Assembly (NCBI GenBank): GCA_020722245.1
Contig: DYLE01000002.1
Span: 1 to 33,218 of the forward strand
Direction: 5' to 3'
DNA length: 33,218 nt
Origin: Desulfonema limicola
Lineage (GTDB): Bacteria; Desulfobacterota; Desulfobacteria; Desulfobacterales; Desulfosalsimonadaceae
Position 1 is the stretch's first letter. Each line of letters begins with the position of its first letter. Shown in pieces: positions 932 through 29,677 of this stretch. A model generated the notes under the pieces. The model was not told the DNA's origin and made no database searches. It worked only from the letters and a program-made list of their open reading frames with translations. Made by a program: the position numbers and the translations under genes.

Positions 932-1204
932 ATGACGGTTTCCGATGACACGGATGAACTGGTCATTACCGTTGTCGGTCCCGGGCGCCCCCAGTGTGAA
1001 AAACTGAAAATGACGGTCATGATGGCGCTTTCCGAACTTTCCCTGCCGGCCCGGGTGGATCATGTCCGGAACCCGAAGGAAATCGGTCAAATGGGAATCT
1101 TTGGCACACCGGCGCTCTTGATTAACAAGGATGTCAAATGTGTCGGATCGACGCCGTCAAAATCCAAAATCATCGAATGGTTGATCCCATACCAAAAGGC
1201 ATAA
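932..1204 (+). CDS. Thioredoxin-like small protein with altered active site (GPGRPQC)
   Basis: Fold-like pattern VVGPGRPQCEK...GIFGTPALLINKDVKCVG matches the GPGCPKC...GVFGTPAVVIDG pattern of ORF 1652-1885; the first Cys is replaced by Arg. Confidence 0.7.
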   Translation: MTVSDDTDELVITVVGPGRPQCEKLKMTVMMALSELSLPARVDHVRNPKEIGQMGIFGTPALLINKDVKCVGSTPSKSKIIEWLIPYQKA

Positions 1205-1246
1205 TGCCGTTGGCCCTGGATTTGAATGAGCTGAAAGGCTATCCCC

Positions 1247-1636
1247 ATGAAACAGCTTGAAATTGAATGGCGTCATCTGGAGAAGGATGGAAGAACCTGC
1301 GATCGTTGCGGAGATACAGGATTAGAGTTACGCAGTGCTGTTTCAGCTCTCAAACATAGCCTTAACGAAGCGGGATGGGAGATTGTATTTAAGGAAACCT
1401 TTTTGACGGAAGAACAAATTCCCGATTCCAATATGATTCTTTTGAATGGCATACCCATTGAGGAAATTCTGCCGCAGGCCAAAAAATCGGAAAGCTGTTG
1501 CGTTTCATGCAAAGATTTGCTCGGCACATCCATCCTGTGCCGAGCTATTGAACGTGAAGGCATAATTTATGAGACAATCCCCTCCGCCATGATACGGGAG
1601 GCGGTGAAGCGATATATCGATCATCATCAATCATAA
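1247..1636 (+). CDS. DUF2703-type Cys-rich small protein
   Basis: Pattern LEIEWRHLEKDGRTCDRCGDTG...ILLNGIPIEEIL...ESCCVSCKDLLG, recognised as DUF2703-like from memory. Confidence 0.65.
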   Translation: MKQLEIEWRHLEKDGRTCDRCGDTGLELRSAVSALKHSLNEAGWEIVFKETFLTEEQIPDSNMILLNGIPIEEILPQAKKSESCCVSCKDLLGTSILCRAIEREGIIYETIPSAMIREAVKRYIDHHQS

Positions 1637-1651
1637 AAAGGAGAACCTTAA

Positions 1652-1885
1652 ATGGATATCAAAGTATTGGGGCCAGGATGCCCGAAATGCAAACAAACCG
1701 AAAGTATTATCATGGACGCGCTGGCTGAAGCCGGTGTGGCCGCCAACGTGGAAAAAGTCACGGATGTGATGAAAATTGCGGGTTACGGCGTGTTCGGAAC
1801 ACCGGCTGTGGTGATTGACGGCGAAGTAAAGATTGTTGGGAAAATCCCCAAAAAGGAAGACGTGCTTTCCTGGATAAAAAAGTAA
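1652..1885 (+). CDS. Thioredoxin family protein (TM0996/MTH895 glutaredoxin-like)
   Basis: MDIKVLGPGCPKCKQTE...GYGVFGTPAVVIDGEVKIVGKIP: canonical CPKC and cis-Pro segment; RBS AAAAGGAG. Confidence 0.85.
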   Translation: MDIKVLGPGCPKCKQTESIIMDALAEAGVAANVEKVTDVMKIAGYGVFGTPAVVIDGEVKIVGKIPKKEDVLSWIKK

Positions 1886-1900
1886 TAGACGGAGGCGGGT

Positions 1901-2338
1901 ATGACTGAAACATGTTGCGGCGGTGGAAGCAATGTAATGATTCTCTCCTGCTCGGGCGGCTCCAATGTCGGGCAGTTGTCCAATCAGGCGGCCGTTGAGC
2001 TGACACAGGAAGGATTCGGAAAAATGTTCTGCCTGGCCGGCATCGGCGGACAGCTTTCCGGTTTTGTACAATCCGCAAAGGATGTGCCAAAGCTGGTGGT
2101 CATTGACGGCTGCCGGATCGGCTGCGGCCGGGCGATTTTAAAGCAGGCCCATGTGCTGCTCTCCCATTACCTTGTGGTGACCGACGAGGGGATCGAAAAA
2201 AACGATGATGTTAACCTGAAACGGGCCGATATCGACCGGATCAAGGAGGCGGTCAGACGGAAGGTAAATCCGAATCTCGCCGGAGCTTTCGGGCTGCCTG
2301 CGGGCGGATGCACCTGCGGGGGAAGACCATGCTGCTGA
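1901..2338 (+). CDS. DGC-domain putative zinc-binding protein
   Basis: ILSCSGGSNVGQLSNQAAVELTQEG...VVIDGCRIGCGRAI, with CCGGG and CTCGGRPCC ends. Confidence 0.75.
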   Translation: MTETCCGGGSNVMILSCSGGSNVGQLSNQAAVELTQEGFGKMFCLAGIGGQLSGFVQSAKDVPKLVVIDGCRIGCGRAILKQAHVLLSHYLVVTDEGIEKNDDVNLKRADIDRIKEAVRRKVNPNLAGAFGLPAGGCTCGGRPCC

Positions 2339-2850
2339 ACCGCTATACCAAAAAAATATTCCGGCCGGAGTGCAATCCGAGTTTTGAGAGCGTGCATTGC
2401 ATTGCGACCTTAGAGGATGACATCTCCGCGGTTTTGCCGTATCTGAACGCTGAACTGGGCGGGACCCAGTATTACAAAGACCCACCGATGGTCATGTTTC
2501 ACACCTACGGCAAAATCATCAAAGTTTCCGGCCGGGAGATCGCAGTAAATGCGCTTAAGGATGAGGCAGAAGCGGACAAAATAATCGAATGGCTGAAAAA
2601 CGAGATCAACCGGGTATGGGAAAACCGGGAAACCATCACCCCCTGCTATACGGGTAAGGTGAAGCCCAAATTATTTGAGATCCTGAAGCTGCTTCCGAAA
2701 ACCAACTGCAAAAAATGCGGGCTTCCCACCTGCATGGTGTTTGCGGCCCAGGTGATGGAAGGCGGACGCGGAATTGAAGATTGCCCGGACGTGACCGAAG
2801 AGAACCGGGAAAAACTGGCCGCCTATCTGTCCAAATTTGAATTTGAGTAG
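2329..2850 (+). CDS. (Fe-S)-binding protein with CFeSP/ACDS gamma-type 4Fe-4S domain
   Basis: LKLLPKTNCKKCGLPTCMVFAAQVMEGGRGIEDCP matches the PF04060-type motif CxxCxxxxC...C. Start at 2329 overlaps the upstream stop. Confidence 0.75.
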   Translation: MLLNRYTKKIFRPECNPSFESVHCIATLEDDISAVLPYLNAELGGTQYYKDPPMVMFHTYGKIIKVSGREIAVNALKDEAEADKIIEWLKNEINRVWENRETITPCYTGKVKPKLFEILKLLPKTNCKKCGLPTCMVFAAQVMEGGRGIEDCPDVTEENREKLAAYLSKFEFE

Positions 2851-2874
2851 ATCTCGAGTAGTAAAATCGAAGGG

Positions 2875-3318
2875 ATGCCAATTATGACCCGAAAATTAAA
2901 AATTTTGTTTTTATGCACCGGCAATTCCTGCCGCAGCCAGATGGCCGAAGGATGGGCCATGCATTTGAAATCCGATCAAATTGACGTAAGTTCCGCGGGC
3001 ATTGAAAAGCACGGGTTGAACCCGCTTGCGGTCCGGGCCATGGCGGAAGCCGGTGCAGACATATCGGCCCACCAATCCAAAACCGTGGATGAACTGCCGG
3101 ACCTGTCTTTTGATTATGTGATCACGGTCTGCGACCATGCCCATGAATCCTGCCCGTTGTTTCCGGGAAAGGCCGTGGTGGTCCATGCGGGATTTGATGA
3201 TCCGCCCCGGCTGGCCGCGGCTGCAAAAAACGATGAGGAGGCCATGATCCATTACCGTCGGGTGCGGGATGAAATCCGAAATTTTGTGCAGCAGTTGCCC
3301 CGTGCACTCAAAAAATAA
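2875..3318 (+). CDS. arsC: Arsenate reductase, LMW phosphatase-type
   Basis: KILFLCTGNSCRSQMAEGW P-loop (CTGNSCRS) and DYVITVCDHAHESCPLFPG. Confidence 0.92.
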   Translation: MPIMTRKLKILFLCTGNSCRSQMAEGWAMHLKSDQIDVSSAGIEKHGLNPLAVRAMAEAGADISAHQSKTVDELPDLSFDYVITVCDHAHESCPLFPGKAVVVHAGFDDPPRLAAAAKNDEEAMIHYRRVRDEIRNFVQQLPRALKK

Positions 3319-3330
3319 AGGAGGCCCTGA

Positions 3331-4425
3331 ATGACGGAATCCACCATTAAAAGATTATCGTTTCTGGATCGGTATCTTACCCTCTGGATTTTTCTGGCCA
3401 TGTTCATTGGTGTGGGCAGCGGGTATTTTCTGCCGGATGTAAAAAATTTTATCAACCGTTTCACCATGGGCACCACCAATATCCCCATTGCCATCGGCCT
3501 GATTCTGATGATGTATCCGCCCCTGGCCAAGGTGAAATACGAAAAGCTACGATTTGTATTCAGGGATGTCAAAGTGCTCAGCCTTTCTCTGGTGCAGAAC
3601 TGGATCATCGGACCGATTCTGATGTTTGTGCTGGCAGTGACCCTTTTGTCCGGATATCCGGAATACATGGTGGGGTTGATTCTCATCGGCCTGGCCCGGT
3701 GTATCGCCATGGTGATTGTATGGAACGACCTGGCCCACGGGGATACGGAATACTGCGCCGGTCTGGTGGCGTTTAACTCCATTTTTCAGGTGCTGTTTTT
3801 TTCGGTTTACGCCTATGTATTTATCACCATTTTGCCTCAGTGGATGGGACTGGAAGGCATGGTGGTGGATATTACCATCGGTCAGATTGCCGAAAGCGTT
3901 TTCATCTACCTGGGCATCCCGTTTATTGCGGGTCTTCTGTCTCGCGTGATCGGTTTGAAAAGCGTGGGCGCGGAACGTTATGAAAAAGGATTTATTCCCA
4001 AAATCAGCCCCATTACGTTGATTGCCTTGCTGTTTACCATCCTGGTCATGTTTTCCCTCAAAGGAGACTATATCATTCAACTGCCCCTGCATGTGGTTCA
4101 GGTTGCCATCCCGCTCCTGATTTATTTTGTGCTGATGTTTTTCGTCTCCTTCTGGTTATCCAAAAAAGTCGGGGCCACCTATGAGCAGACCACCACGCTG
4201 TCGTTTACCGCCGCATCCAACAATTTTGAACTGGCCATCGCCGTTTCGGTTGCGGTTTTCGGCATTAATTCCGGGCAGGCGTTTGCTGCGGTGATTGGGC
4301 CCCTGGTAGAGGTGCCGGCGCTGATCATGCTGGTCAACGTGGCCTTGTGGATGAAGCCCAGGTATTTCCCCTATGCGCTCAATACGCCCAGCGGGGTATG
4401 CCACGTCACCTGCAGGCCCCAGTAA
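3331..4425 (+). CDS. acr3: ACR3-family arsenite efflux transporter
   Basis: [32 protein letters not shown] and [25 protein letters not shown] are characteristic of ACR3; directly follows arsC. Confidence 0.93.
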
Positions 4426-4433
4426 GGAAAAAA

Positions 4434-5789
4434 ATGATGCGGATTGTGGTTATCGGCGGATCGGACGCGGGGATCAGCGCGGGACTTCGGGCTAAGGAAA
4501 TCGATTCGACAGCGGAAGTGACCGTGCTGGTAAAAGACAAATACCCGAATTTTAGCATCTGCGGGCTTCCGTTTTTTATCGGCGGCGAGGTGGAGGATTG
4601 GCCCCGTCTGGCCCACCGCACCTATGATGATTTGCAGGAGGCCGGGCTTCGAGTGCTGATCCATCATGAAGCGATAAAAATAAACCCAGAGGCCCGCACG
4701 GTTTTTGCGAGAGGCCCATCCGGATCGGCCTTTGAATTTCCATACGATCGACTGATCCTTGCCGCGGGCGCGGTGTCGGCCCGGCCCCCGATTCCCGGCT
4801 GTGATCTGCCCGGGGTGTTTTTCATGCGGTTTATGGAGGACGGTTTGGCTGTTTTGGATTTTTTGGAAAAATTGAATCCCAAGCGCGCCGCCGTCATCGG
4901 CAGCGGGTATATCGGCATGGAAATGGCCGAAGCCCTGCATCGGCGGGGCATGGCCGTGACCCTGCTGGAAATGGCGGATGCCGTCATGCCGTCTTTTGAC
5001 CACCAAATGGGCGCGCTGATACAAAAAGCCCTGGCGGAGCGGGGAATCCGGGTAAAAACCGGCGTCAAAATCACGGCAATCGAAAAGCAGGCGGATCGGC
5101 TGATGGTCCGGGCCGGTGATGAAATGGTTGCCGAAGCGGAGTTTATCCTTGTTGCGGCGGGCGCAAAACCGTGCGTGGAACTGGCGGTGAAAGCAGGCAT
5201 CCCCTTGGGAAAAACCGGGGCTGTCGCGGTCAATGAAAAAATGGAGACGGGCCTGCCGGGCGTCTATGCGGCCGGGGACTGCGCGGAAACCCTGCACCGC
5301 TTGACCGGGAAATATGTCTATATGCCGTTGGGAACCACATCCCACAAGCAGGGCCGCATCGCCGGCGAGAACGCAGCCGGTGGAAGTGTGGTTTTCAAGG
5401 GCGTGGCGGGTACCCAATCCTTGAAAGTTTTTGATCGGATAGTAGCCCGGACCGGGTTTCGGGACGTGGAGGCGGTGGCCCACGGGTTTGACCCGTTGAC
5501 CATCGCGCTTGAAACGCCGGATCACAAATCCTACTATCCCGGATCATCCCCCATGCATATCCGTCTGACCGGGGAGCGCAAGACCGGCCAACTGCTGGGA
5601 GCTCAGATCATCGGGCGTCATGGCGCGGAAATATCCAAGCGCATCGACGTTGTGGCAGCCGCTCTGTATTCCGGCCGGACAGTTTCGGATCTGATAAATT
5701 TTGATCTGTCGTATACGCCGCCGCTCTCTTCTCCCTGGGACCCCTTGCAGATGGCGGCTTTTGAATGGTGTAAGCAGTTAAACAATTAA
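4434..5789 (+). CDS. FAD-dependent pyridine nucleotide-disulfide oxidoreductase (CoA-disulfide reductase-like)
   Basis: VVIGGSDAGISAGLRAKEID, NFSICGLPFFIGGEV, AAVIGSGYIGMEMAEAL, GVYAAGDCAET. ATG at 4434/4437 follows RBS AAGGA. Confidence 0.88.
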   Translation: MMRIVVIGGSDAGISAGLRAKEIDSTAEVTVLVKDKYPNFSICGLPFFIGGEVEDWPRLAHRTYDDLQEAGLRVLIHHEAIKINPEARTVFARGPSGSAFEFPYDRLILAAGAVSARPPIPGCDLPGVFFMRFMEDGLAVLDFLEKLNPKRAAVIGSGYIGMEMAEALHRRGMAVTLLEMADAVMPSFDHQMGALIQKALAERGIRVKTGVKITAIEKQADRLMVRAGDEMVAEAEFILVAAGAKPCVELAVKAGIPLGKTGAVAVNEKMETGLPGVYAAGDCAETLHRLTGKYVYMPLGTTSHKQGRIAGENAAGGSVVFKGVAGTQSLKVFDRIVARTGFRDVEAVAHGFDPLTIALETPDHKSYYPGSSPMHIRLTGERKTGQLLGAQIIGRHGAEISKRIDVVAAALYSGRTVSDLINFDLSYTPPLSSPWDPLQMAAFEWCKQLNN

Positions 5790-5825
5790 ACGAGTGACTC
5801 ACAGCAGTTGTTAAGGAGATTTTTT

Positions 5826-6287
5826 ATGCACCCTCTTTGGAAAAAAGCGTCTGTCTTCATCTGGCTTATGGTTTTCAGTTTCGCATTTCCCCTTCAAAGT
5901 GTTTTCGGGGATGATGCGGCCGATGGCTCGGCCACACAAATTCAAAAACCGTCTCATTATCTTGTCGTCACGTATTTTCACACCTCGTTTCGCTGCCCCT
6001 CCTGCTACAGGATCGAGAAATATTCCAAAGACGCCATTCACTTCAATTTCGAAGACGAACTGAAATCCGGGAAAATCGTCTGGCGGGTCATTAACGTGGA
6101 AGAACCTCCCAACAGACATTTTATCAAGGATTACAGGCTCTATTCCAAACATCTGATTGTCTCGGAAGTCCAGGACGGAAAAGAACTGCGGTGGAAGGAT
6201 CTCAAGGAGGTCTGGGTGAAGGTCAGGGATGAGGCGCAATTCAACGATTATGTCAAAACCGAAATCAGCGACTGGCTGAAGGAGTAA
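5826..6287 (+). CDS. ArsF-like secreted thioredoxin-type protein
   Basis: Signal peptide, then VVTYFHTSFRCPSCYRIEKYS...; immediately upstream of an ArsG-like permease. RBS AAGGAG at ~5815. Confidence 0.65.
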   Translation: MHPLWKKASVFIWLMVFSFAFPLQSVFGDDAADGSATQIQKPSHYLVVTYFHTSFRCPSCYRIEKYSKDAIHFNFEDELKSGKIVWRVINVEEPPNRHFIKDYRLYSKHLIVSEVQDGKELRWKDLKEVWVKVRDEAQFNDYVKTEISDWLKE

Positions 6288-6289
6288 TC

Positions 6290-6985
6290 ATGGAATTCGG
6301 AATCACGCAAATGTCATCCGTCATCTGGCTGGGGATCCTCACCTCCATCAGCCCCTGCCCCCTGGCCACCAATATCGCGGCCACCACCTATATCGGCAGG
6401 CAGATCAATTCGCCTTTTGCGACGGTCTGGGCCGCGGTCGCCTATACCCTCGGCCGCACGGCGACCTATGTATTGATCGCCTCCGCCGTCATCGCCGGGG
6501 TTTTTTCCATTCCCGGGGTTTCCATGTTTCTCCAGACCCACATGAATAAAATCCTGGGGCCGGTTCTCCTGGTCACGGGATTGTTTATCCTGGAACTGGT
6601 GCCGCTGAAACTGCCGGCCGTGAGTTTAAACGCGAACCTGATCAAACGGCTGGGCGACAGCGGCATGCCGGGTGCGGTGGCCCTGGGGTTTTTATTCGCC
6701 CTGGGATTTTGCCCGGTATCCGCGGCCCTGTTTTTTGGCGGCGTCATCCCCTTGTCTCTGGAATTGGAGTCCCGTTTTTTTCTGCCCCTGCTTTATGGAT
6801 TCGGGACCGCCGCGCCGGTGATCGGGTTTGCGGTGATCATCGCCTGGAGCGCCCGCACCGCCGGGCTGTTTTTCAACCGTCTGGCCGTGCTCGAACGCTG
6901 GTTCCGGCGCATCACCGGGGTGATGTTTGTGCTGGTGGGGGGGTATTTCTGTTTAAAGTATCTTTTCGGAATCATCAATTTTTGA
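6290..6985 (+). CDS. CcdA/DsbD-fold permease, ArsG-like
   Basis: SISPCPLATNIAATTYIGR and ALGFCPVSAALFFGGVIP motifs, multi-TM, coupled to the ArsF-like ORF. Confidence 0.7.
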   Translation: MEFGITQMSSVIWLGILTSISPCPLATNIAATTYIGRQINSPFATVWAAVAYTLGRTATYVLIASAVIAGVFSIPGVSMFLQTHMNKILGPVLLVTGLFILELVPLKLPAVSLNANLIKRLGDSGMPGAVALGFLFALGFCPVSAALFFGGVIPLSLELESRFFLPLLYGFGTAAPVIGFAVIIAWSARTAGLFFNRLAVLERWFRRITGVMFVLVGGYFCLKYLFGIINF

Positions 6986-16777: not shown

Positions 16778-17770
16778 ATGACCCATTCCCATTTAACATC
16801 CTTTCATGATGAATTTCCAAAAGATTCTTGCCGGAGGGATGAATGCGGCGATGAACATTCCGGGCGTCATCATGTCAATATTGAGGAGACCAGCGGGGCA
16901 AGACTTTTAATCACCCTGGTCTTGAATCTGATCATTCCGATTGTCCAGATTATCAGCGGAAGCATTGCCCACAGCATGGCCCTGATTTCCGACGCCGCCC
17001 ATAATTTCAGTGATTTTACCGCTGTCCTGATTTCATACATTGCGTATCGAATCGGTAAAAAAGGGGCCACAGCGCAAAATACCTTCGGGTACCGCCGGGC
17101 CGAGATCATGGCGGCTTTATTCAATGTGGTGATTCTGGCCAGCGCTTCCCTGTTTATTTTATATGGCGCGGTGAAACGGTTCTTAGCACCTGAAATCGTT
17201 TCCGGCGGGATTGTGATATGGGCCGCGGCCATCGGCATCGCGGGAAACGGCTTTTCCGCCTGGCTGCTCCATCGTGACGCCAAACACAATCTGAATGTGC
17301 GCGGCGCTTTTCTGCACATGATGGGAGATTTTCTGACCTCTGTGGCGGTTCTGATCAGCGGCGTTGTAATGATTTTTTACCCCTGGTACTGGCTCGATCC
17401 CTTGCTTTCCATCCTGATTGTCATATTTATCCTTAAAAACTGCTGGTCCATACTCAAATCTTCCACCATGATTTTAATGAACGCCACACCCGCCAGCATC
17501 GATTTAAATAAAATTCAATCTTCTCTGTCACGCATCGAGGGAATAACGAGTGTGCACTATCTTCATGCCTGGCCCTTGAGCTCCTCGGGTATCGCTTTTT
17601 CATGCCACCTGGTTGTCTCGGATCAACTCCTCAGCCAAACGGAAAAAATATCCAAAAAAGTAAAACATTTGCTCTTTCACGAGTTCGGCATCGATCATCC
17701 GGTTTTGCAGTTTGAAACTAAATCCTGCGGCAACGGGTCCATGTTGTGCGAGATGCTGGCCGACAAATAA
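16778..17770 (+). CDS. Cation diffusion facilitator (CzcD/ZitB-like) transporter
   Basis: SMALISDAAHNFSDFTAVLISYIAYRIGKKGATAQNTFGYRRAEIMAALFN...LHMMGDFLTSVAVLISG. Confidence 0.93.
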   Translation: MTHSHLTSFHDEFPKDSCRRDECGDEHSGRHHVNIEETSGARLLITLVLNLIIPIVQIISGSIAHSMALISDAAHNFSDFTAVLISYIAYRIGKKGATAQNTFGYRRAEIMAALFNVVILASASLFILYGAVKRFLAPEIVSGGIVIWAAAIGIAGNGFSAWLLHRDAKHNLNVRGAFLHMMGDFLTSVAVLISGVVMIFYPWYWLDPLLSILIVIFILKNCWSILKSSTMILMNATPASIDLNKIQSSLSRIEGITSVHYLHAWPLSSSGIAFSCHLVVSDQLLSQTEKISKKVKHLLFHEFGIDHPVLQFETKSCGNGSMLCEMLADK

Positions 17771-17814: not shown

Positions 17815-18021
17815 ATGAACCTGAAAACCATCCGGATTGAACTCGCACCTCAGCAAATCCAAAAGATTTTATCCATCGCCTTAGATGATGACAAAGAAGG
17901 TGCATTGGAGTTTATCAAGGGAACCCTGGCAAAACAGATCGAAAAAGAATTGACACCCCACTGAGTGCCGGTCTTCGAGGCCAGTTACGGCCCCGCCCAG
18001 GCTATGCGGTTTAAGGAATGA
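17815..18021 (+). CDS. Small conserved protein, candidate selenoprotein (in-frame TGA at 17962-17964)
   Basis: MNLKTIRIELAPQQIQKILSIALDDDKEGALEFIKGTLAKQIEKELTPH-[TGA]-VPVFEASYGPAQAMRFKE*. The post-TGA frame stays open for 18 codons, and GGCC-AGTTAC-GGCC hairpin lies 18 nt after the TGA. Confidence 0.55.
17962..17995 (+). promoter_or_regulatory. Candidate UGA-Sec codon plus bacterial SECIS hairpin
   Basis: TGA 17962-17964; stem GGCC (17979-17982) / GGCC (17989-17992) with flanking CG/CG pairs across one mismatch, loop AGTTAC (17983-17988), 18 nt from TGA to loop. Confidence 0.5.
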
Positions 18022-18048: not shown

Positions 18049-18288
18049 ATGAAAATCGAAATCATCGGTCCGGGTTGCCCGTTTTGCAAAACGTTGTGCA
18101 AGCGGACCAAGGAGGTGGTCCAGGAAAACAACATTGACGCGGAAATAGAGCATCTGACCAATTTTAAATCCTGGATCAAGCACTTTCCCATGACCCCGGT
18201 GCTCATCGTGGATGGAGAAATCCGGCACCGGGGCAAGTGGCTGCCGAATAAAAAGAAAATATTAAAGCTGCTGACCGAAGGAAAATAA
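18049..18288 (+). CDS. Thioredoxin family protein (glutaredoxin-like)
   Basis: IEIIGPGCPFCKTLCKRTKEVV...FPMTPVLIVDGEI; RBS AAAGGAGG. Confidence 0.85.
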   Translation: MKIEIIGPGCPFCKTLCKRTKEVVQENNIDAEIEHLTNFKSWIKHFPMTPVLIVDGEIRHRGKWLPNKKKILKLLTEGK

Positions 18289-19755: not shown

Positions 19756-22251
19756 ATGGCGGTTAACCGTTTATCCGGGATTTGGATCATGTTATTGCTG
19801 GTATTCATGCTTTCAGCGTGCGAGCAAAGAGACAGCGCTGTATTGAAACCTGCAAATGAAACGAAGAATGACAACGCCATGGGCGTTTGCCCGCCATTTC
19901 CGCTTCGTGATGAATCGGGCAAGGTCATTAATCCTGTGGCCGGGATTAATGAGACAGCCCCTTATTCTTCGCGCCAGACCTGCGGCGTCAAAGGCTGCCA
20001 TGATTACGAAAAGATCACGGAGGGCTTTCACTTCACCCAGGGCAAAGGCGAGAAAGTCCCGGCGATCATGGCCGAGCGGTATGCCTGGGTGACATCGCCC
20101 GGCAATTATGGCGGCAACTGGTGCTCGCCCGCGCCGCTTTACCGGCAGCTTGCACCCAAAAAGAACTCGAGCGCCCGTGCCATCGACATGACATCGTTCG
20201 ACTTCGTGACCGCAACCTGCGGCAACTGCCACCCGGGCGGCGGCCCTCTTGAATTGGATCGGGACGGCAAACGATACGACACCCAGATGCGTGATCCGGC
20301 ATCAAACATGGTAGCGGGCGGCGAGAACGGTCTTGACGGTGATTATTATAAAGCGCGATGGTCAGAGACGGGCGTCATCGAGGCGGATTGCCTTCTGTGT
20401 CACATGCCCGAATACGATATGAAAAAGCGAAACGACGAACTGGCGAATCTGAACTTTCGCTGGGCCGCAACTGCCGGCGCGGGTTTCGGAACCGTGACCG
20501 GAAAAGTGAGCGCCAGCGAACAGCCTGCCGTTGTTTACGACAAAAACAAGTTTGATGCCGACGGCAATGTTCTTGTTCATATCGCCCCGGAACCGCGCAA
20601 TGAAACCTGCCTGAACTGCCATTTCAAGCCCGATTGGAAAAAGCGCGGCGCGGCCTATTCAGCACGCACGGACGTCCATATGGTAGCAGGGCTTCGCTGC
20701 GTGGATTGCCACGCCGCCGGCAGCAAGGCGGCGGACCCGCGCATCCGGGGCCGAGAGGTTCACCAGTTCGGCAAGGGCGACGACCCGTCCGGTTGGGTCC
20801 GCAATGATCTTGATAACACAGTACGGTCGTGCGAGAGCTGCCACCTTCAAGGCTGGCGCAATGCCCCGCGCGCAACGCACACCTGGCTCCCGCCGCTTCA
20901 CATGGAAAAAATCGCCTGCCAGACCTGTCATATTCCGGCCCGTGCGGTAAAAAGCGCCCTGGTTCAGGCGAGCGACGTTTATAATCCCGCGCCCCGGATC
21001 ATGCCGCCGCCAAAGCATATCTGGACATTTTACGACCAGGACATGGCTTTCTGGAACCACTATGGTGAGCTGGATCTGTTCACGGGAAAGGATGAGCCGA
21101 CGAACATCACCCGGCCGACACTCATCCGCTATAAAGGAAAAATCTATCCCGCTAACCGGGTTCACAGCGCATGGGTGGGCTTCGAGGAGCTGGGCAAGCC
21201 TGGCTTGAATCAGCTCTTCATGAAGGATTTCTTCCAGATGTGGACCCAACACAGGGCCGACCCCAAGAACAAATATCCGGGGCTTGATAAAATTACTGAC
21301 GACAATCAGGACGGCATCATCGAGGTGAACCGGCCGGAGGAGATCGACGCGCTTCTCGTCGCAACCAGGTCATATCTTACCGCTACGGGATTTCCGCTTT
21401 CGAACCGGCGTCTGGCATGGGTCTCCGACAACAAAGCGTATTTTTCATCAACGGAGTTTAAGGACCTGCCGCATGAGCCGTGGGAAGCAACGGCCTATGC
21501 ATCGGTATACAAATTTTCCCATGACGTGGCGCCGGCGCGGGCCGCACTGGGTGCCGGTGGGTGCACAGACTGCCATCGTGATGGTTCTCCTTTTTTCCAG
21601 GGCCATGTCCTTGAAACGACTTTTTCTTCAACCGATGGACGTCCGCATTGGGTTCCCAATTTTCAAGTTCTCGGCATATCTCCTTTATGGGTGAAACTGG
21701 GGACATTGCGGGAAGAATTCATAAAACCGGTTCTCTATGGCCTGGTTGGAGCAATGCTCTTTTTATGGCTGACTGTATTTCTGATGGATGTCGCCGTCCA
21801 AAAAAGTAGTTTCAATGCAGGTTTTGACAGGGCCCTGATTTTCGCGGTTCTGGCAGCCGGGCTGATTGGTGGTTTCATGATTGTCATGACCCCTGGCCTT
21901 ATTGAATATATGATAATCAGCCGATTCAATATGGATGCGCACCATTTCTGGGTTGCAAGCGGCGTCCTTTTGGCCGGGCTTTTGGTATTGCTGAAGGACA
22001 CATCCCCCGATCGCCTCAAACGCGGTGGTATTTTATTGATTTATTGCTGCGGCTGGTTTGCGCTGGGTCTCGCTGTCGTTTCCGGCGCCCTGATGTTGTT
22101 TAAATTTACAGCGATGGAGACTGCCGTCCGAATGGCATACACGCTTTTCGACGCGGGTCTTTTGTTGTCGGCGGCCGTGAGCTCAATCCTGTTGTTGTTG
22201 CGAATCATAAAACCGTCAACCCCAGCGGGGTTTAAACCGAAGGCGCGCTAA
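19756..22251 (+). CDS. Octaheme c-type cytochrome lipoprotein with C-terminal membrane domain (Cys paralog)
   Basis: Lipobox-like MLSAC; seven CxxCH motifs (CGNCH, CLLCH, CLNCH, CVDCH, CESCH, CQTCH, CTDCH) plus one CGVKGCH; hydrophobic helices near the C terminus. Confidence 0.9.
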   Translation: MAVNRLSGIWIMLLLVFMLSACEQRDSAVLKPANETKNDNAMGVCPPFPLRDESGKVINPVAGINETAPYSSRQTCGVKGCHDYEKITEGFHFTQGKGEKVPAIMAERYAWVTSPGNYGGNWCSPAPLYRQLAPKKNSSARAIDMTSFDFVTATCGNCHPGGGPLELDRDGKRYDTQMRDPASNMVAGGENGLDGDYYKARWSETGVIEADCLLCHMPEYDMKKRNDELANLNFRWAATAGAGFGTVTGKVSASEQPAVVYDKNKFDADGNVLVHIAPEPRNETCLNCHFKPDWKKRGAAYSARTDVHMVAGLRCVDCHAAGSKAADPRIRGREVHQFGKGDDPSGWVRNDLDNTVRSCESCHLQGWRNAPRATHTWLPPLHMEKIACQTCHIPARAVKSALVQASDVYNPAPRIMPPPKHIWTFYDQDMAFWNHYGELDLFTGKDEPTNITRPTLIRYKGKIYPANRVHSAWVGFEELGKPGLNQLFMKDFFQMWTQHRADPKNKYPGLDKITDDNQDGIIEVNRPEEIDALLVATRSYLTATGFPLSNRRLAWVSDNKAYFSSTEFKDLPHEPWEATAYASVYKFSHDVAPARAALGAGGCTDCHRDGSPFFQGHVLETTFSSTDGRPHWVPNFQVLGISPLWVKLGTLREEFIKPVLYGLVGAMLFLWLTVFLMDVAVQKSSFNAGFDRALIFAVLAAGLIGGFMIVMTPGLIEYMIISRFNMDAHHFWVASGVLLAGLLVLLKDTSPDRLKRGGILLIYCCGWFALGLAVVSGALMLFKFTAMETAVRMAYTLFDAGLLLSAAVSSILLLLRIIKPSTPAGFKPKAR

Positions 22252-23817: not shown

Positions 23818-25603
23818 ATGCGGATTTTATTCATGAAAAACAAATTCCCCCCGCTCTTCATCTTTATGTTTTTTGGTGTGGTGCTGTCTGCCCATGCCTC
23901 AACGATCAATTCACTGGTCGAGGCGGTTCAACTTAAAGAATGGATCGATAACAATTACCGCACCGGGACGGGAGAACGGGTAGTCCTCATCGATGTGGTG
24001 CCGGGAATAGAGAGCCGTGAAAGCGGGTTTTCCGGTGATTTTGAAAATTTAAAAAAGCAGCTTGCCAAAAAATTCGGCAAACAGTCGCCTGCCTATAAAT
24101 TATTGGATCAGCAGAATCGGGATGGTTTGCTGGGGCATATCCCCGGAGCGATTCTCAATATCTCGCATGACGATCTGGAGACGATGAAGCGAAACGACGG
24201 TCCCATAGACGTGGATCATCAGGTCGGGAGCGGGGATCGCGTTGATGAGCTTCTCCAGTCTCACGGCATAACGCCCGACGATGTCATCGTCATCACCAGT
24301 TCCCAGCAGACTCCCTGGACGGTTTGTGCTCCGCGTCTCTGGTGGACGCTTTACTACTGGGGCTTTTCCCCTGAAAGGATCAAACTTCTGAATGGCGGCA
24401 ACAAGGCGTATGCGCTGGCCGGCTATAAACTTGAAGGCGATGTCGCGCAACCTGAAATCAAGCCGTCAACGATGACCGTCGACGCCGTTCCCACCCGTCA
24501 TTTTGAGTCAAGAATCGGATTGCAGGAGATGATTGATCTGGTTGACAGCGGCAAGACCAGCAATGGGAGGTAACTCTGCTGGATGTCCGCCAGCCTCCGG
24601 CGGCCTTTTATCTGAAAGATTCGAAAAACGCCGCCGGATTACAAAAGCCGGATGGTATTCCGGACATTTACCAGGTCAAAGGGTTCAGCTATAATGCTCA
24701 TGACAAGCTTTTTACCCGCGCATCAGACAAAAAAATTTCAATCTTAGTCAGATGCTGTTTGCAAAGGAAGCCAACGACGGAAAAACGGCCTGGCTTATTT
24801 TTGACCCTGCCGGTGATCCGCCGATTCCCCTCCCCAATGGGTTTGTGACGCTGCATATGGTTAAAACATCATCCGGCATGGGGCCTCTCCCTATCCCGAT
24901 TGGGACCCGAAGCGGCGATTTTGGCGGAATCATCAAAGGAGCGCGCCTGATCAAGTCCGATACTTACAATCTCACAGTTTCTTCAGTAACCGGCAAGGAC
25001 AATCGTTTCAAGAGCCGTGAAGAACTGATCGCCGTCTTTGAAAAAGCAGGAATCGACGGGAAAAAGCCAATTATTTTCTACTGCAACTCGGGCGCTCTCA
25101 GTTCGTTCTATTTCTATGCCCTGCATGAGATCGCCGGGTTCGAAAATGTCAGGATGTATGACGGATCATGGCAGGAATGGGCCAATCTGACTGCGTTTGA
25201 ACCGGTTGACACCCGTTATGTCCGCCGGGACGCTGAAATGCTCTACCCATCATTGCCGGCCATGAATCCGGCCGTGATGATGTTCTCCGGTGAGAACAGC
25301 TACCTGGAATGGAACGGCGCACGATTTGCCAACAGGGTAACGGATGCTCCGGCAACGGCCAAAGAGATCAAACCGGGTGGAACATTGAAGGGGGGGAATA
25401 TGCACTGGGATACGCTGCACAGATCCGAGCATGTTGTCTTCAGACCTTCAAAAACAGTCAGCTCCGCGAAGGAGCTTAAAAATTACACCTCTTCAACCGA
25501 TTGGCCGGAGATGAATACGGCCCCCGATTATAAAGGCATTGCCGAAAGAATTGCCGAGGAAGACCGCGCATTCCCGCATAAAACCCTGGAAACAGCAAAA
25601 TGA
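23818..25603 (+). pseudogene. Exported rhodanese-domain protein interrupted by two -1 frameshifts
   Basis: Signal peptide and rhodanese segments (VVLIDVVPG..., IIFYCNSGALSSFYFYALHEIAGFENVRMYDGSWQEW) run across three frames. One G near 24565 and one A in 24729-24735 restore a single ~595-aa ORF. Confidence 0.75.
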
Positions 25604-27266: not shown

Positions 27267-29677
27267 ATGAAAAAGGATTCCCGTTTCCATTTAACTCTAT
27301 TTTGGCTTGTCATGGTATCGGTTGACAGGGCATATGAACAGGCGAAACAGGACGCCATGGGCATCTGCCCGCCGATCTTTCTGCAGGACGAGAACGGAAA
27401 CATCATCAACCCGGTTTCAGGTGTAAACGCCGATGTACCCTACAGCCCGAAACAGACCTGCGGCAAGTGCCACGATTACGATAAAATTACGAAAGGATAC
27501 CATTTCCAGCAGGGCAAGGGCGAGAAGATGACACCCGAGTATGCCGCGCGCTACCCCTGGTGCACCAGCCCGGGCCAGTACGGCGGCCGGTGGTGAAGCC
27601 CCGGCCCGATCTTTCCGCAGTTGGCGGAAAAGCATAACACATCCCCCCTTCAGATCGATTTTACTTCATATACCTTTGCGAAAATGTGCGGCCTTTGCCA
27701 TCCGGGCGGGGCTGCCTGGAGTATGATCGAAACGGCAACCGCTATGACCAGTTTGCCGAAAATCCGAAAAACGCGATTATCCCCGGCGAAACAAACGGCC
27801 TGGACGGCGATTATTTCAAGTCTGACTGGGCCAAAAGCGGCGCAATGGAGGCGGACTGCCTCATGTGCCACCTTAAGGAGTATGACAACGACGCCCGTAT
27901 GAAACAGATATCGGCCTTGAATTTCAGGTGGGCGGCCACGGCCGGGGCCGGCTTCGGGGAGGTTGTCGGCAGTGTCGCCAAAAAAGAGACACCCTTGGTG
28001 GAATACGACCCCGCCCGATTCGGACCGGACGGTACGGTGACGCTTCCGGTGATGAGAAAACCGCTCAATGAAAACTGCCTGTTCTGCCACCATGAGTCGG
28101 GATGGAAAAAGCGGGGCCAGTCGTTTTCAAAACGGACCGACGTGCATATGCGGGCCGGGCTTTTGTGCGTGGACTGCCATGTGACCGGCCGGGAGGCAAC
28201 GGACAAAAGGATTTACGGCCGGGAGGAACACCAGATCGGCAAGGGGGACGATCCCGGCGATTTTGTCCGCGACGACCTGGACAACACCATGCGCGCCTGT
28301 GAAGACTGCCATGACAAAGGGATCTTAAACGCGCCGATCCCCAAACACAAAGGATTTCCTCCGTCACACTTCGAACATATCGCTTGCCGGACCTGCCACA
28401 TGCCGTGGCACCAGGTCAAGGCGGCCCTGATCCAGGATGCCTCGGTGTTCAACACAAGCCCCCGGATTGAGCCGCCGTCCAAGCGGATCTGGTCCTTTTA
28501 CGGGCCGGACATGAAGCCATGGAACTACTACGGATTTGCCCTGGGATATCCTGAAGGGGATCAGCCCCTCACCCAGTACCGGCCGGTGCATGCGCTCTAC
28601 AAGGGGAAAATTTATCCCGTAAACCGGGTTTACACCCGCTGGGTCGGTATCAAAACCGACAGTCAGCCGGGTATCGACATGCCCCACATGACGGATATCT
28701 TCATGATGTGGAAAACCCACATGGACGATCCGAACAAAAACTACCCCCTCCTTTCCATGATCAACGACGATAATAAGGACGGGTATCCCGAGGTTAATCG
28801 GCCGGAAGAGATCCGCGCACTGATCGATTCGGTGGTTGCCATGCTCAAGAAAAAGGGGGAATCACTTGGAGGTAAAACCGTCGTGTTTGTGGACGGGGAT
28901 CGCTACACAGCAGATGGAAGCACCTGGACCGACATCCCCAAAAAACCCTATGAATACTCCCCCTACGGATCCGTGTTTAAATACTCCCACGATATCTGCC
29001 CGGCCAAAAACGCCCTGGGCGCAAAGGGCTGCACGGACTGCCACAGCGACAAATCGGACTTCTTTTTTGGAAAGGTCATGAAACAGCCCTTTGATGCGAA
29101 CGGAACACCCACCTATGAGCCGCAATACAAACTCATGGGGTATGACGGTCATGCCCGGCGCTATGCAGGCATGGCCGGCGCCACGGCCGCTTTTTTCAAG
29201 TGGCTGGCCATTATCGTGCTTGCCGGTCTTTTTATTCATATCCTGCTCGATTTTTTTGCAAGGCGCCGTGACATCAAAAAAAGAAAGGATATGGATGCCC
29301 AGGACATGGCCGGAGAATATCAGCGTTTTAATTCAAACTTTTTGGCCCAGCACCTGCTTTTGGCCGTAAGCGTTATCCTTTTGAGCGTATCGGGTGTTTT
29401 CCTGTGGGGATTGCGCTACCCCGGCGCGCACTGGGCCGCCGTCCTCACCGGCGCGGCCGGCGGTATCGACTTCTGGCGGCTGGTCCACCGGGCCGGCGGC
29501 CTTGTTTTAACCTTTACCTGTTTCTATCACCTGGTTTACTGCCTCGTCCACCCGGAAGGCCGCCGGGATTTTATCCTGATGCTTCCCCGGGCAAAGGACG
29601 TTGCCGATTTTTTCAAAAACCTGGCCTGGTTTGTGGGCCTTGCCAAGGAGCGCCCGCAATTCGGACGGTTCTCCTAA
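27267..29677 (+). CDS. Octaheme c-type cytochrome fused to cytochrome b-like domain; candidate selenoprotein, with -1 frameshift at 27708-27711
   Basis: Eight CxxCH motifs (CGKCH, CGLCH, CLMCH, CLFCH, CVDCH, CEDCH, CRTCH, CTDCH), paralogous along its length to ORF 19756. In-frame TGA at 27594-27596 aligns with the paralog's Cys. Adding one G at 27708-27711 joins ORF 27684-frame to ORF 27686-29677. Confidence 0.8.
27594..27630 (+). promoter_or_regulatory. Candidate UGA-Sec codon plus bacterial SECIS hairpin
   Basis: TGA 27594-27596; stem TTTCCGC (27612-27618) / GCGGAAA (27624-27630), loop AGTTG (27619-27623), 22 nt between TGA and loop, G at loop position 2. Confidence 0.7.

Follow-up and report, generated by a model that had tools for sequence, protein, structure and literature searches.

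A probable small selenoprotein family of Desulfobacterales with cysteine homologs and a recurrent arsenic-resistance gene context

The stretch of DNA analysed, here called the window, is 33,218 nucleotides long and comes from Desulfonema limicola (contig DYLE01000002.1, positions 1 to 33,218). Towards its middle lies a frame of 68 codons (Table 1), which begins with ATG at 17815, contains TGA as codon 50 and ends with another TGA at 18019–18021. An earlier note on this DNA had described an in-frame TGA (17962–17964), followed by 18 open codons and a terminal TGA, in a protein of 67 amino acids. The reading of the frame stands, with the 18 codons encoding VPVFEASYGPAQAMRFKE, but the protein is 68 residues long when the selenocysteine (Sec) is counted. 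The gene is flanked by a CDF transporter gene and a thioredoxin-like gene, as had been described: the former ends at 17770, 44 nt upstream of the frame, and the latter starts at 18049 and is preceded by AGGAGG, so that the terminal TGA is indeed located just before the ribosome-binding site of the next gene. With 60.2 bits, the thioredoxin-like protein stays below the NCBIfam cut-off of 62 bits. Eighteen open codons alone are no evidence for a translated extension; the UGA together with the downstream peptide, exactly conserved in 24 genera, is beyond chance.

Table 1. Features of the candidate selenoprotein locus, in window coordinates.
Feature	Position	Strand	Basis or remark
Predicted selenoprotein coding sequence, 68 amino acids, Sec as residue 50 (MNLKTIRIELAPQQIQKILSIALDDDKEGALEFIKGTLAKQIEKELTPH-U-VPVFEASYGPAQAMRFKE)	17815..18021	+	Frame reading and homologs
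Putative Sec-UGA codon (TGA)	17962..17964	+	Always TGA among the UGA homologs of the order; 17 homologs from other lineages have TGT/TGC
Carboxy-terminal 18-residue extension, translated only if the UGA is decoded	17965..18018	+	P-V-F-E-x-x-Y invariant in 35 aligned homologs
Amino-terminal helical hairpin (predicted helices, residues 12–24 and 27–46)	17848..17952	+	AlphaFold2 model
SECIS-like hairpin, CG-A-GGCC / loop AGUUAC / GGCC-C-CG	17976..17995	+	
Upstream neighbour, CDF (cation diffusion facilitator) transporter	16778..17770	+	
Downstream neighbour, small CPFC thioredoxin-fold protein (Thioredoxin_3, MTH895/ArsE-like)	18049..18288	+	
Arsenic-resistance cluster on the same contig	932..6985	+	About 11–17 kb upstream of the selenoprotein gene

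When the sequence was read with cysteine at the TGA and compared with 98 related genomes, the gene was found in 14 of them, including the host, and each copy contains an in-frame TGA. Among 390 genomes of the order, a profile recovered the full gene in 32, which belong to 24 genera and 16 families. All 32 have TGA at the Sec codon, the TGAs of the UGA homologs fall in one alignment column, and the cysteine form was not found in these 390 genomes. One shortened copy (G067) has an extra TAA. An ordinary stop at this position would yield a protein of 49 amino acids ending in ...KELTPH, with the codons behind it untranslated or a chance extension. This reading would agree with the use of TGA as a standard stop in the host genome and with the existence, in several relatives, of the amino-terminal domain as a separate protein ending in ...GMKSHL, but it is very improbable, because the codons after the UGA are the best conserved of the gene in the 32 genomes, are continuous with a cysteine codon in 17 homologs (see below) and differ mainly at third codon positions (2501 differences, against 974 and 1017 at the other two). 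A chance open frame behind a real stop was rejected on the same kind of evidence, the conservation across 24 genera. Homologs all ending at ...TPH, or a lack of conservation downstream, were both looked for and neither was seen: the homologs continue past TPH and VPVFEASY is their most conserved block.

Some copies of the gene deviate from the common arrangement. In the one-contig genome G216 the homolog (C1:533358–533533) is split by a TAG and a change of frame near the Sec position, possibly as a pseudogene or through a sequencing error, and was left out of the count of 32. Two copies of the UGA gene are present on a single contig at locus L032 (at 1772 and 4828), and two also in genomes G056, G273 and G313, which suggests duplication within the family. 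A further UGA copy (L059:173–268), on a 3.1-kb contig binned as Planctomycetota, is very like the Desulfobacterales copies and may reflect binning contamination or transfer.

A scan of 84,980 species genomes, with each hit read codon by codon, gave 29 loci, 12 with TGA and 17 with TGT or TGC at the Sec position; as the scan patterns favour cysteine codons, this ratio is not an estimate of frequency. The cysteine loci read CVPVFEASY or a close variant; they belong to Actinomycetota, among them a Thermoleophilia bin, and to several deltaproteobacterial or unclassified metagenome-assembled genomes. An impression that homologs carry HC-VPVFEASY, offered in the earlier note as unverified, is correct for these 17 homologs, and the tblastn search proposed there, with U or C at the UGA, has a positive outcome (UGA homologs in 32 genomes, cysteine homologs at 17 loci). 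No residue other than Sec or cysteine was seen at this position among the homologs found. In an alignment of 35 sequences, the residues A, [U/C], P, V, F, E and Y are invariant, and a second conserved cysteine is absent. In the tree of these 35 rows, a single branch with support 100/98 separates all UGA forms from the rest; calculated from 69 columns, the tree resolves little else, and residues dictated by the SECIS-like element may add to the grouping of the UGA forms. The standard comparative mark by which a selenoprotein is recognised is the exchange of UGA and cysteine codons, and a UGA conserved in the order, with cysteine elsewhere and no other residue, constitutes this mark.

Downstream of the UGA, a hairpin is formed by two GGCC arms (17979–17982 and 17989–17992) enclosing the loop AGUUAC (17983–17988). 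The earlier note had placed this GGCC-AGTTAC-GGCC hairpin 18 nt past the TGA; the hairpin is real, but it is the loop that lies at 18 nt (spacer 17965–17982), while the stem already begins 14 nt past the TGA. In the published bacterial SECIS model (PMC13188914), the apical loop has 3–9 nt and the upper stem 4–16 bp, one of the first two loop bases is a G, after which G or U is usual, the UGA is 16–37 nt from the apical loop and the minimum free energy is at most −7.5 kcal/mol. The hairpin agrees with all five criteria. Its loop has 6 nt and its core stem 4 bp, with 2 bp more beyond an A-C mismatch, the UGA lies 18 nt from the apical loop, and the calculated energies are −8.7 kcal/mol for the 26-nt core and −14.2 kcal/mol for 42 nt. 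The second loop base is G in all 33 distinct UGA genes and is followed by T in 28 and by C in 5 of them. Compared with shuffled sequences, the energy has a z-score of −2.2 for the 26-nt core, but −0.85 and +0.40 for lengths of 42–60 nt, which is not exceptional; energy was therefore dropped as the main support for the hairpin. Compensatory covariation of the stem is almost absent: 94.4% of the cells are paired, and only one double (compensatory) change was seen.

A base-by-base comparison anchored at the UGA, of the 33 distinct UGA genes with the 17 cysteine genes, is more informative. All four core pairs are present in 29 of the 33 UGA genes, against 3 of the 17 cysteine genes. In the Ala/Val codon that lies within the stem, C occupies the third position in 33/33 UGA genes, as against 4/17 cysteine genes (p=7e-9), the G at the second loop position is found in only 6/17 cysteine genes (p=3e-7), and the glycine codon that makes up the 3' arm is present in 32 UGA genes and in none of the cysteine genes. 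Retention of the loop G means that serine is encoded by AGT (or the codon is one for cysteine or glycine) in the UGA genes, while most cysteine genes have TCN. Judging by the alignments, these synonymous-site constraints act on the RNA rather than on the protein, and exist only where the UGA exists. The case for a SECIS element thus appears to lie in the synonymous-site constraint and the contrast with the cysteine genes, in related sequences that are not independent. The split between UGA and cysteine lineages, with the SECIS-like element on the UGA side only, provides an unusually clean natural comparison.

The host genome contains a tRNA-Sec (77.6 bits, called as tRNA-SeC by ARAGORN). Because each of the 14 control genomes also gives a low-scoring match to the Rfam tRNA-Sec model, a threshold of about 73 bits was applied to the counts. 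The host SelD (G000:C203:4215–5132, locus L105) has an in-frame UGA of its own (SGUAAK; SGUAAKL), which further indicates that this genome uses Sec. The host assembly, 78% complete, yielded no SelA or SelB; incompleteness is the simplest explanation, and for the host strain we infer Sec decoding. Among the relatives with the UGA form that were tested, 22 of 23 have a tRNA-Sec of at least 73 bits and 20 of 23 have SelB above the cut-off. In genomes with the cysteine form, SelB is above the cut-off in 10 of 15, which led us to reject the idea that the cysteine lineages are simply without Sec machinery; the cysteine form is not simply the result of its loss.

Read-through of the UGA might also take place without Sec, by reassignment of UGA (to Trp), by a near-cognate suppressor or as a regulated event, and the missing host SelA and SelB would fit such a mechanism. 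It is nevertheless hardly credible, as every sense homolog has cysteine and never Trp, Arg or another near-cognate residue, the gene's own terminal stop is TGA, the host has a tRNA-Sec and a UGA-containing SelD, and the SECIS-type hairpin tracks the UGA and is lost in the cysteine genes. UGA 17962–17964 is thus almost certainly decoded as Sec; it is from comparison of sequences that we infer the incorporation of selenium itself. The Sec-decoding interpretation put forward earlier is borne out by the exchange of U and Cys among homologs, by the contrast of the hairpin with the cysteine genes and by the presence in the host of a Sec-type SelD and a tRNA-Sec. It is highly probable that the protein is a selenoprotein, leaving aside the metal(loid) mechanism discussed below.

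In the AlphaFold2 model, based on 29 sequences, the amino-terminal part is predicted to contain two helices (residues 12–24 and 27–46, block pLDDT 79–90), while the Sec-bearing tail is of low confidence (block pLDDT 57–65; pTM 0.48). The amino-terminal helical domain recurs in several relatives, near the selenoprotein gene, as a separate protein of about 50 amino acids ending in GMKSHL. This protein (...DEDKDEALRLIKEFIKRLEQQKxQGMKSHL) has no Sec/Cys tail and was seen at loci L003, L015, L065, L074, L078 and L037; two copies that were scanned match no Pfam family above the cut-off, and the window contains no copy.

Neither the Sec form nor seven cysteine forms gave a match above cut-off in Pfam or NCBIfam, the seleno-families of the latter included. 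The best Pfam match, to DUF7480, scores 20.6 bits against a 27-bit cut-off and was judged to be a chance match, like those to HesB and a T6SS lipoprotein, which are also sub-threshold. No relative was found in the PDB, either with the family profile or by fold with the predicted structure, for which the best match is an unrelated RSC chain with an E-value of 7.5. Searches of plasmids with the Sec and cysteine forms, and of phages with the Sec form, gave no match. A 2026 catalogue of 119 selenoprotein families and subfamilies (PMC13188914) lists neither the U-V-P-V-F-E motif nor the architecture of the protein, and the family is not recognisable among the nine new selenoprotein families of the deep-Sep paper. 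Searches of the openly available literature brought up no report matching the family, or of small selenoproteins in ars operons. Insertion of Sec at UGA is a known mechanism; what seems to be new is the protein family, together with its association with ars clusters. Like the catalogued bacterial selenoproteins (PMC13188914), the gene has an in-frame UGA, a SECIS-like element immediately downstream, cysteine homologs and Sec-using Desulfobacterales hosts, and it would add an apparently uncatalogued family to the bacterial selenoproteome. Such a family readily escapes notice, since ordinary gene calling ends the protein at the UGA and leaves a frame of 49 amino acids that looks like noise.

The gene neighbourhood was analysed by clustering the genes within 6 kb in 40 loci (23 UGA and 17 cysteine) and naming the cluster representatives. 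The most frequent partners are an ArsR-type regulator and ACR3 (14 loci each), followed by an ArsP_1 permease and an FeS-domain protein (13 each) and a Thioredoxin_3 protein of the MTH895/ArsE type (12). Rhodanese is found in 9 loci, all of them UGA loci, and a CcdA/DsbD-like protein and a DGC protein in 8 each. A CDF transporter is present in 12/23 UGA loci, against 0/17 cysteine loci. At least one gene of this wider partner set is present in 37 of the 40 loci, ACR3, ArsP_1, ArsF or ArsC in 24, and 29 when ArsR is added. As ACR3 is nearly single-copy per genome, about 0.14 of the 40 loci would be expected to have it nearby by chance, against the 14 observed; these statistics are based on per-genome ACR3 counts, and the relatedness of the genomes makes any formal probability too small. 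The strongest and broadest association, common to the Sec and cysteine branches, is with ACR3, ArsP and ArsR. Recurrent location in ars clusters, one of the marks expected of an ars component, is what was observed.

In the window, the ars genes are not in one operon with the selenoprotein gene, the nearest being about 11 kb away. Their cluster contains ACR3 (3331–4425, 13.5 kb upstream of the selenoprotein gene), ArsF (5808–6287), ArsG (6290–6985), a DGC protein, an FeS protein and two MTH895/ArsE-like thioredoxins, the first of which scores 61.6 bits, just under the cut-off. The frame at 2875–3318 looks like a putative ArsC-type arsenate reductase. On the other side of the selenoprotein gene, a rhodanese-like protein (24752–25603) has a sub-threshold match to ExtH (54.8 against 200 bits); ExtH belongs to a selenite/tellurite reduction operon.

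Because the ars context is common to both branches, a role of the family in metal(loid) handling is likely. The recurrence of ACR3, ArsP, ArsR and ArsE-type thioredoxin in both points to a conserved, unexplained component of arsenic or soft-metal resistance. Selenoproteins inside metal-type gene clusters are also found in the SAO/Tso operons (SaoE, TsoB, TsoR; PMC13188914, NCBIfam). The neighbours of the present family score weakly against the SaoE, TsoB and TsoR models, far below the curated cut-offs; the small selenoprotein matches no member of these operons, and the gene set here is centred on ACR3, ArsP and CDF. Thioredoxin_3 (PF13192)-type selenoproteins and the ArsE/MTH895 thioredoxins are likewise small redox proteins, the ArsE type occurring in the same clusters, but have the thioredoxin fold with a CxxC, CxU or UxC motif, while the family described here has a predicted two-helix hairpin and a tail with a single Sec or Cys. 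ArsD-type arsenic metallochaperones use several cysteine residues and differ in this from the single Sec/Cys here. The likeness is by functional analogy only, ArsD being a small ars-cluster protein able in principle to deliver a metalloid to an exporter; as no Pfam family is matched, no kinship is shown.

In the mechanism we propose, tRNA-Sec and SelB would decode the UGA as Sec, directed by the hairpin 14 nt downstream. The product would consist of the amino-terminal two-helix hairpin and a short tail with the pattern [U/C]-[VM]-P-V-F-E-x-x-Y-x-P; apart from the one selenolate or thiolate of this tail, no redox or metal-binding residue is invariant. In the tree, the Sec form takes up a single branch, with hosts of the Desulfobacterales type, and the Cys form is found elsewhere. 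The selenolate would most likely bind, or be transiently oxidised by, an arsenical or a metal species that reacts with thiols. The small CxxC (ArsE-like) thioredoxins of neighbouring genes would then take over the adduct, or reduce the Se-S bond, before export by ACR3, ArsP or CDF. This mechanism, in which CxxC thioredoxins serve one exposed selenolate or thiolate that would bind, or react with, an arsenical or soft metal, is put forward tentatively. More speculative is a one-residue selenium metallochaperone, dedicated to metalloid handling, in which the exposed selenolate of a flexible tail might bind arsenic-type species directly as a Se-As adduct and hand them to exporters or thioredoxins; it is rather doubtful, too, that we are dealing with a putative metallochaperone of this kind without known structural or sequence relative.

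Alternatively, the selenoprotein might have a general thiol-redox role, as a small selenol electron carrier or a peroxidase-like partner of thioredoxin, with the ars link reflecting incidental clustering of stress genes. Redox roles are thought to apply to most selenoproteins (PMC13188914), the neighbours include rhodanese, CcdA/DsbD-like, thioredoxin and FeS-domain genes, and the 24 loci with ACR3, ArsP_1, ArsF or ArsC are not all of the 40. Such a role is possible but somewhat unlikely, for the broadest association is with the ACR3/ArsP/ArsR set shared by both branches and the family lacks a second conserved cysteine. The protein might also be a factor for soft metals (zinc, cadmium, mercury) rather than arsenic, acting with CDF or with SaoE-like or SO_0444-like permeases. 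The CDF gene, immediately upstream in the window and within 6 kb in 12 of the 23 UGA loci, would suit this role. So would the recurrent permease, in which similarity to SaoE and to the SO_0444 Cu/Zn exporter, below cut-off in both cases, is found alongside that to ArsP_1. Its probability is low, since CDF is missing from all cysteine loci and it is ACR3, ArsP_1 and ArsR that both branches share.

Returning to the proposed Sec decoding, a second UGA candidate is present in the window. In a multiheme cytochrome-like gene (27267–27710), TGA 27594–27596 lies opposite a cysteine in a paralog (19756–22251), and the matching stretch in two other genomes (G012 and G003) contains one in-frame TGA. The TGA is followed by a UUUCCGC-AGUUG-GCGGAAA hairpin, the loop of which begins with AGUU, the feature that the earlier note had pointed out as common to both candidates. 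The cytochrome candidate therefore holds, and with the TGA conserved in G012 and G003 and the hairpin, the comparison suggests that the cytochrome-like protein is probably also a selenoprotein. Its frame shifts after ...CGLCHPGG (around 27680–27720), the remainder continuing in another frame at 27686–29677, either through an assembly or indel error or as a real frameshift.
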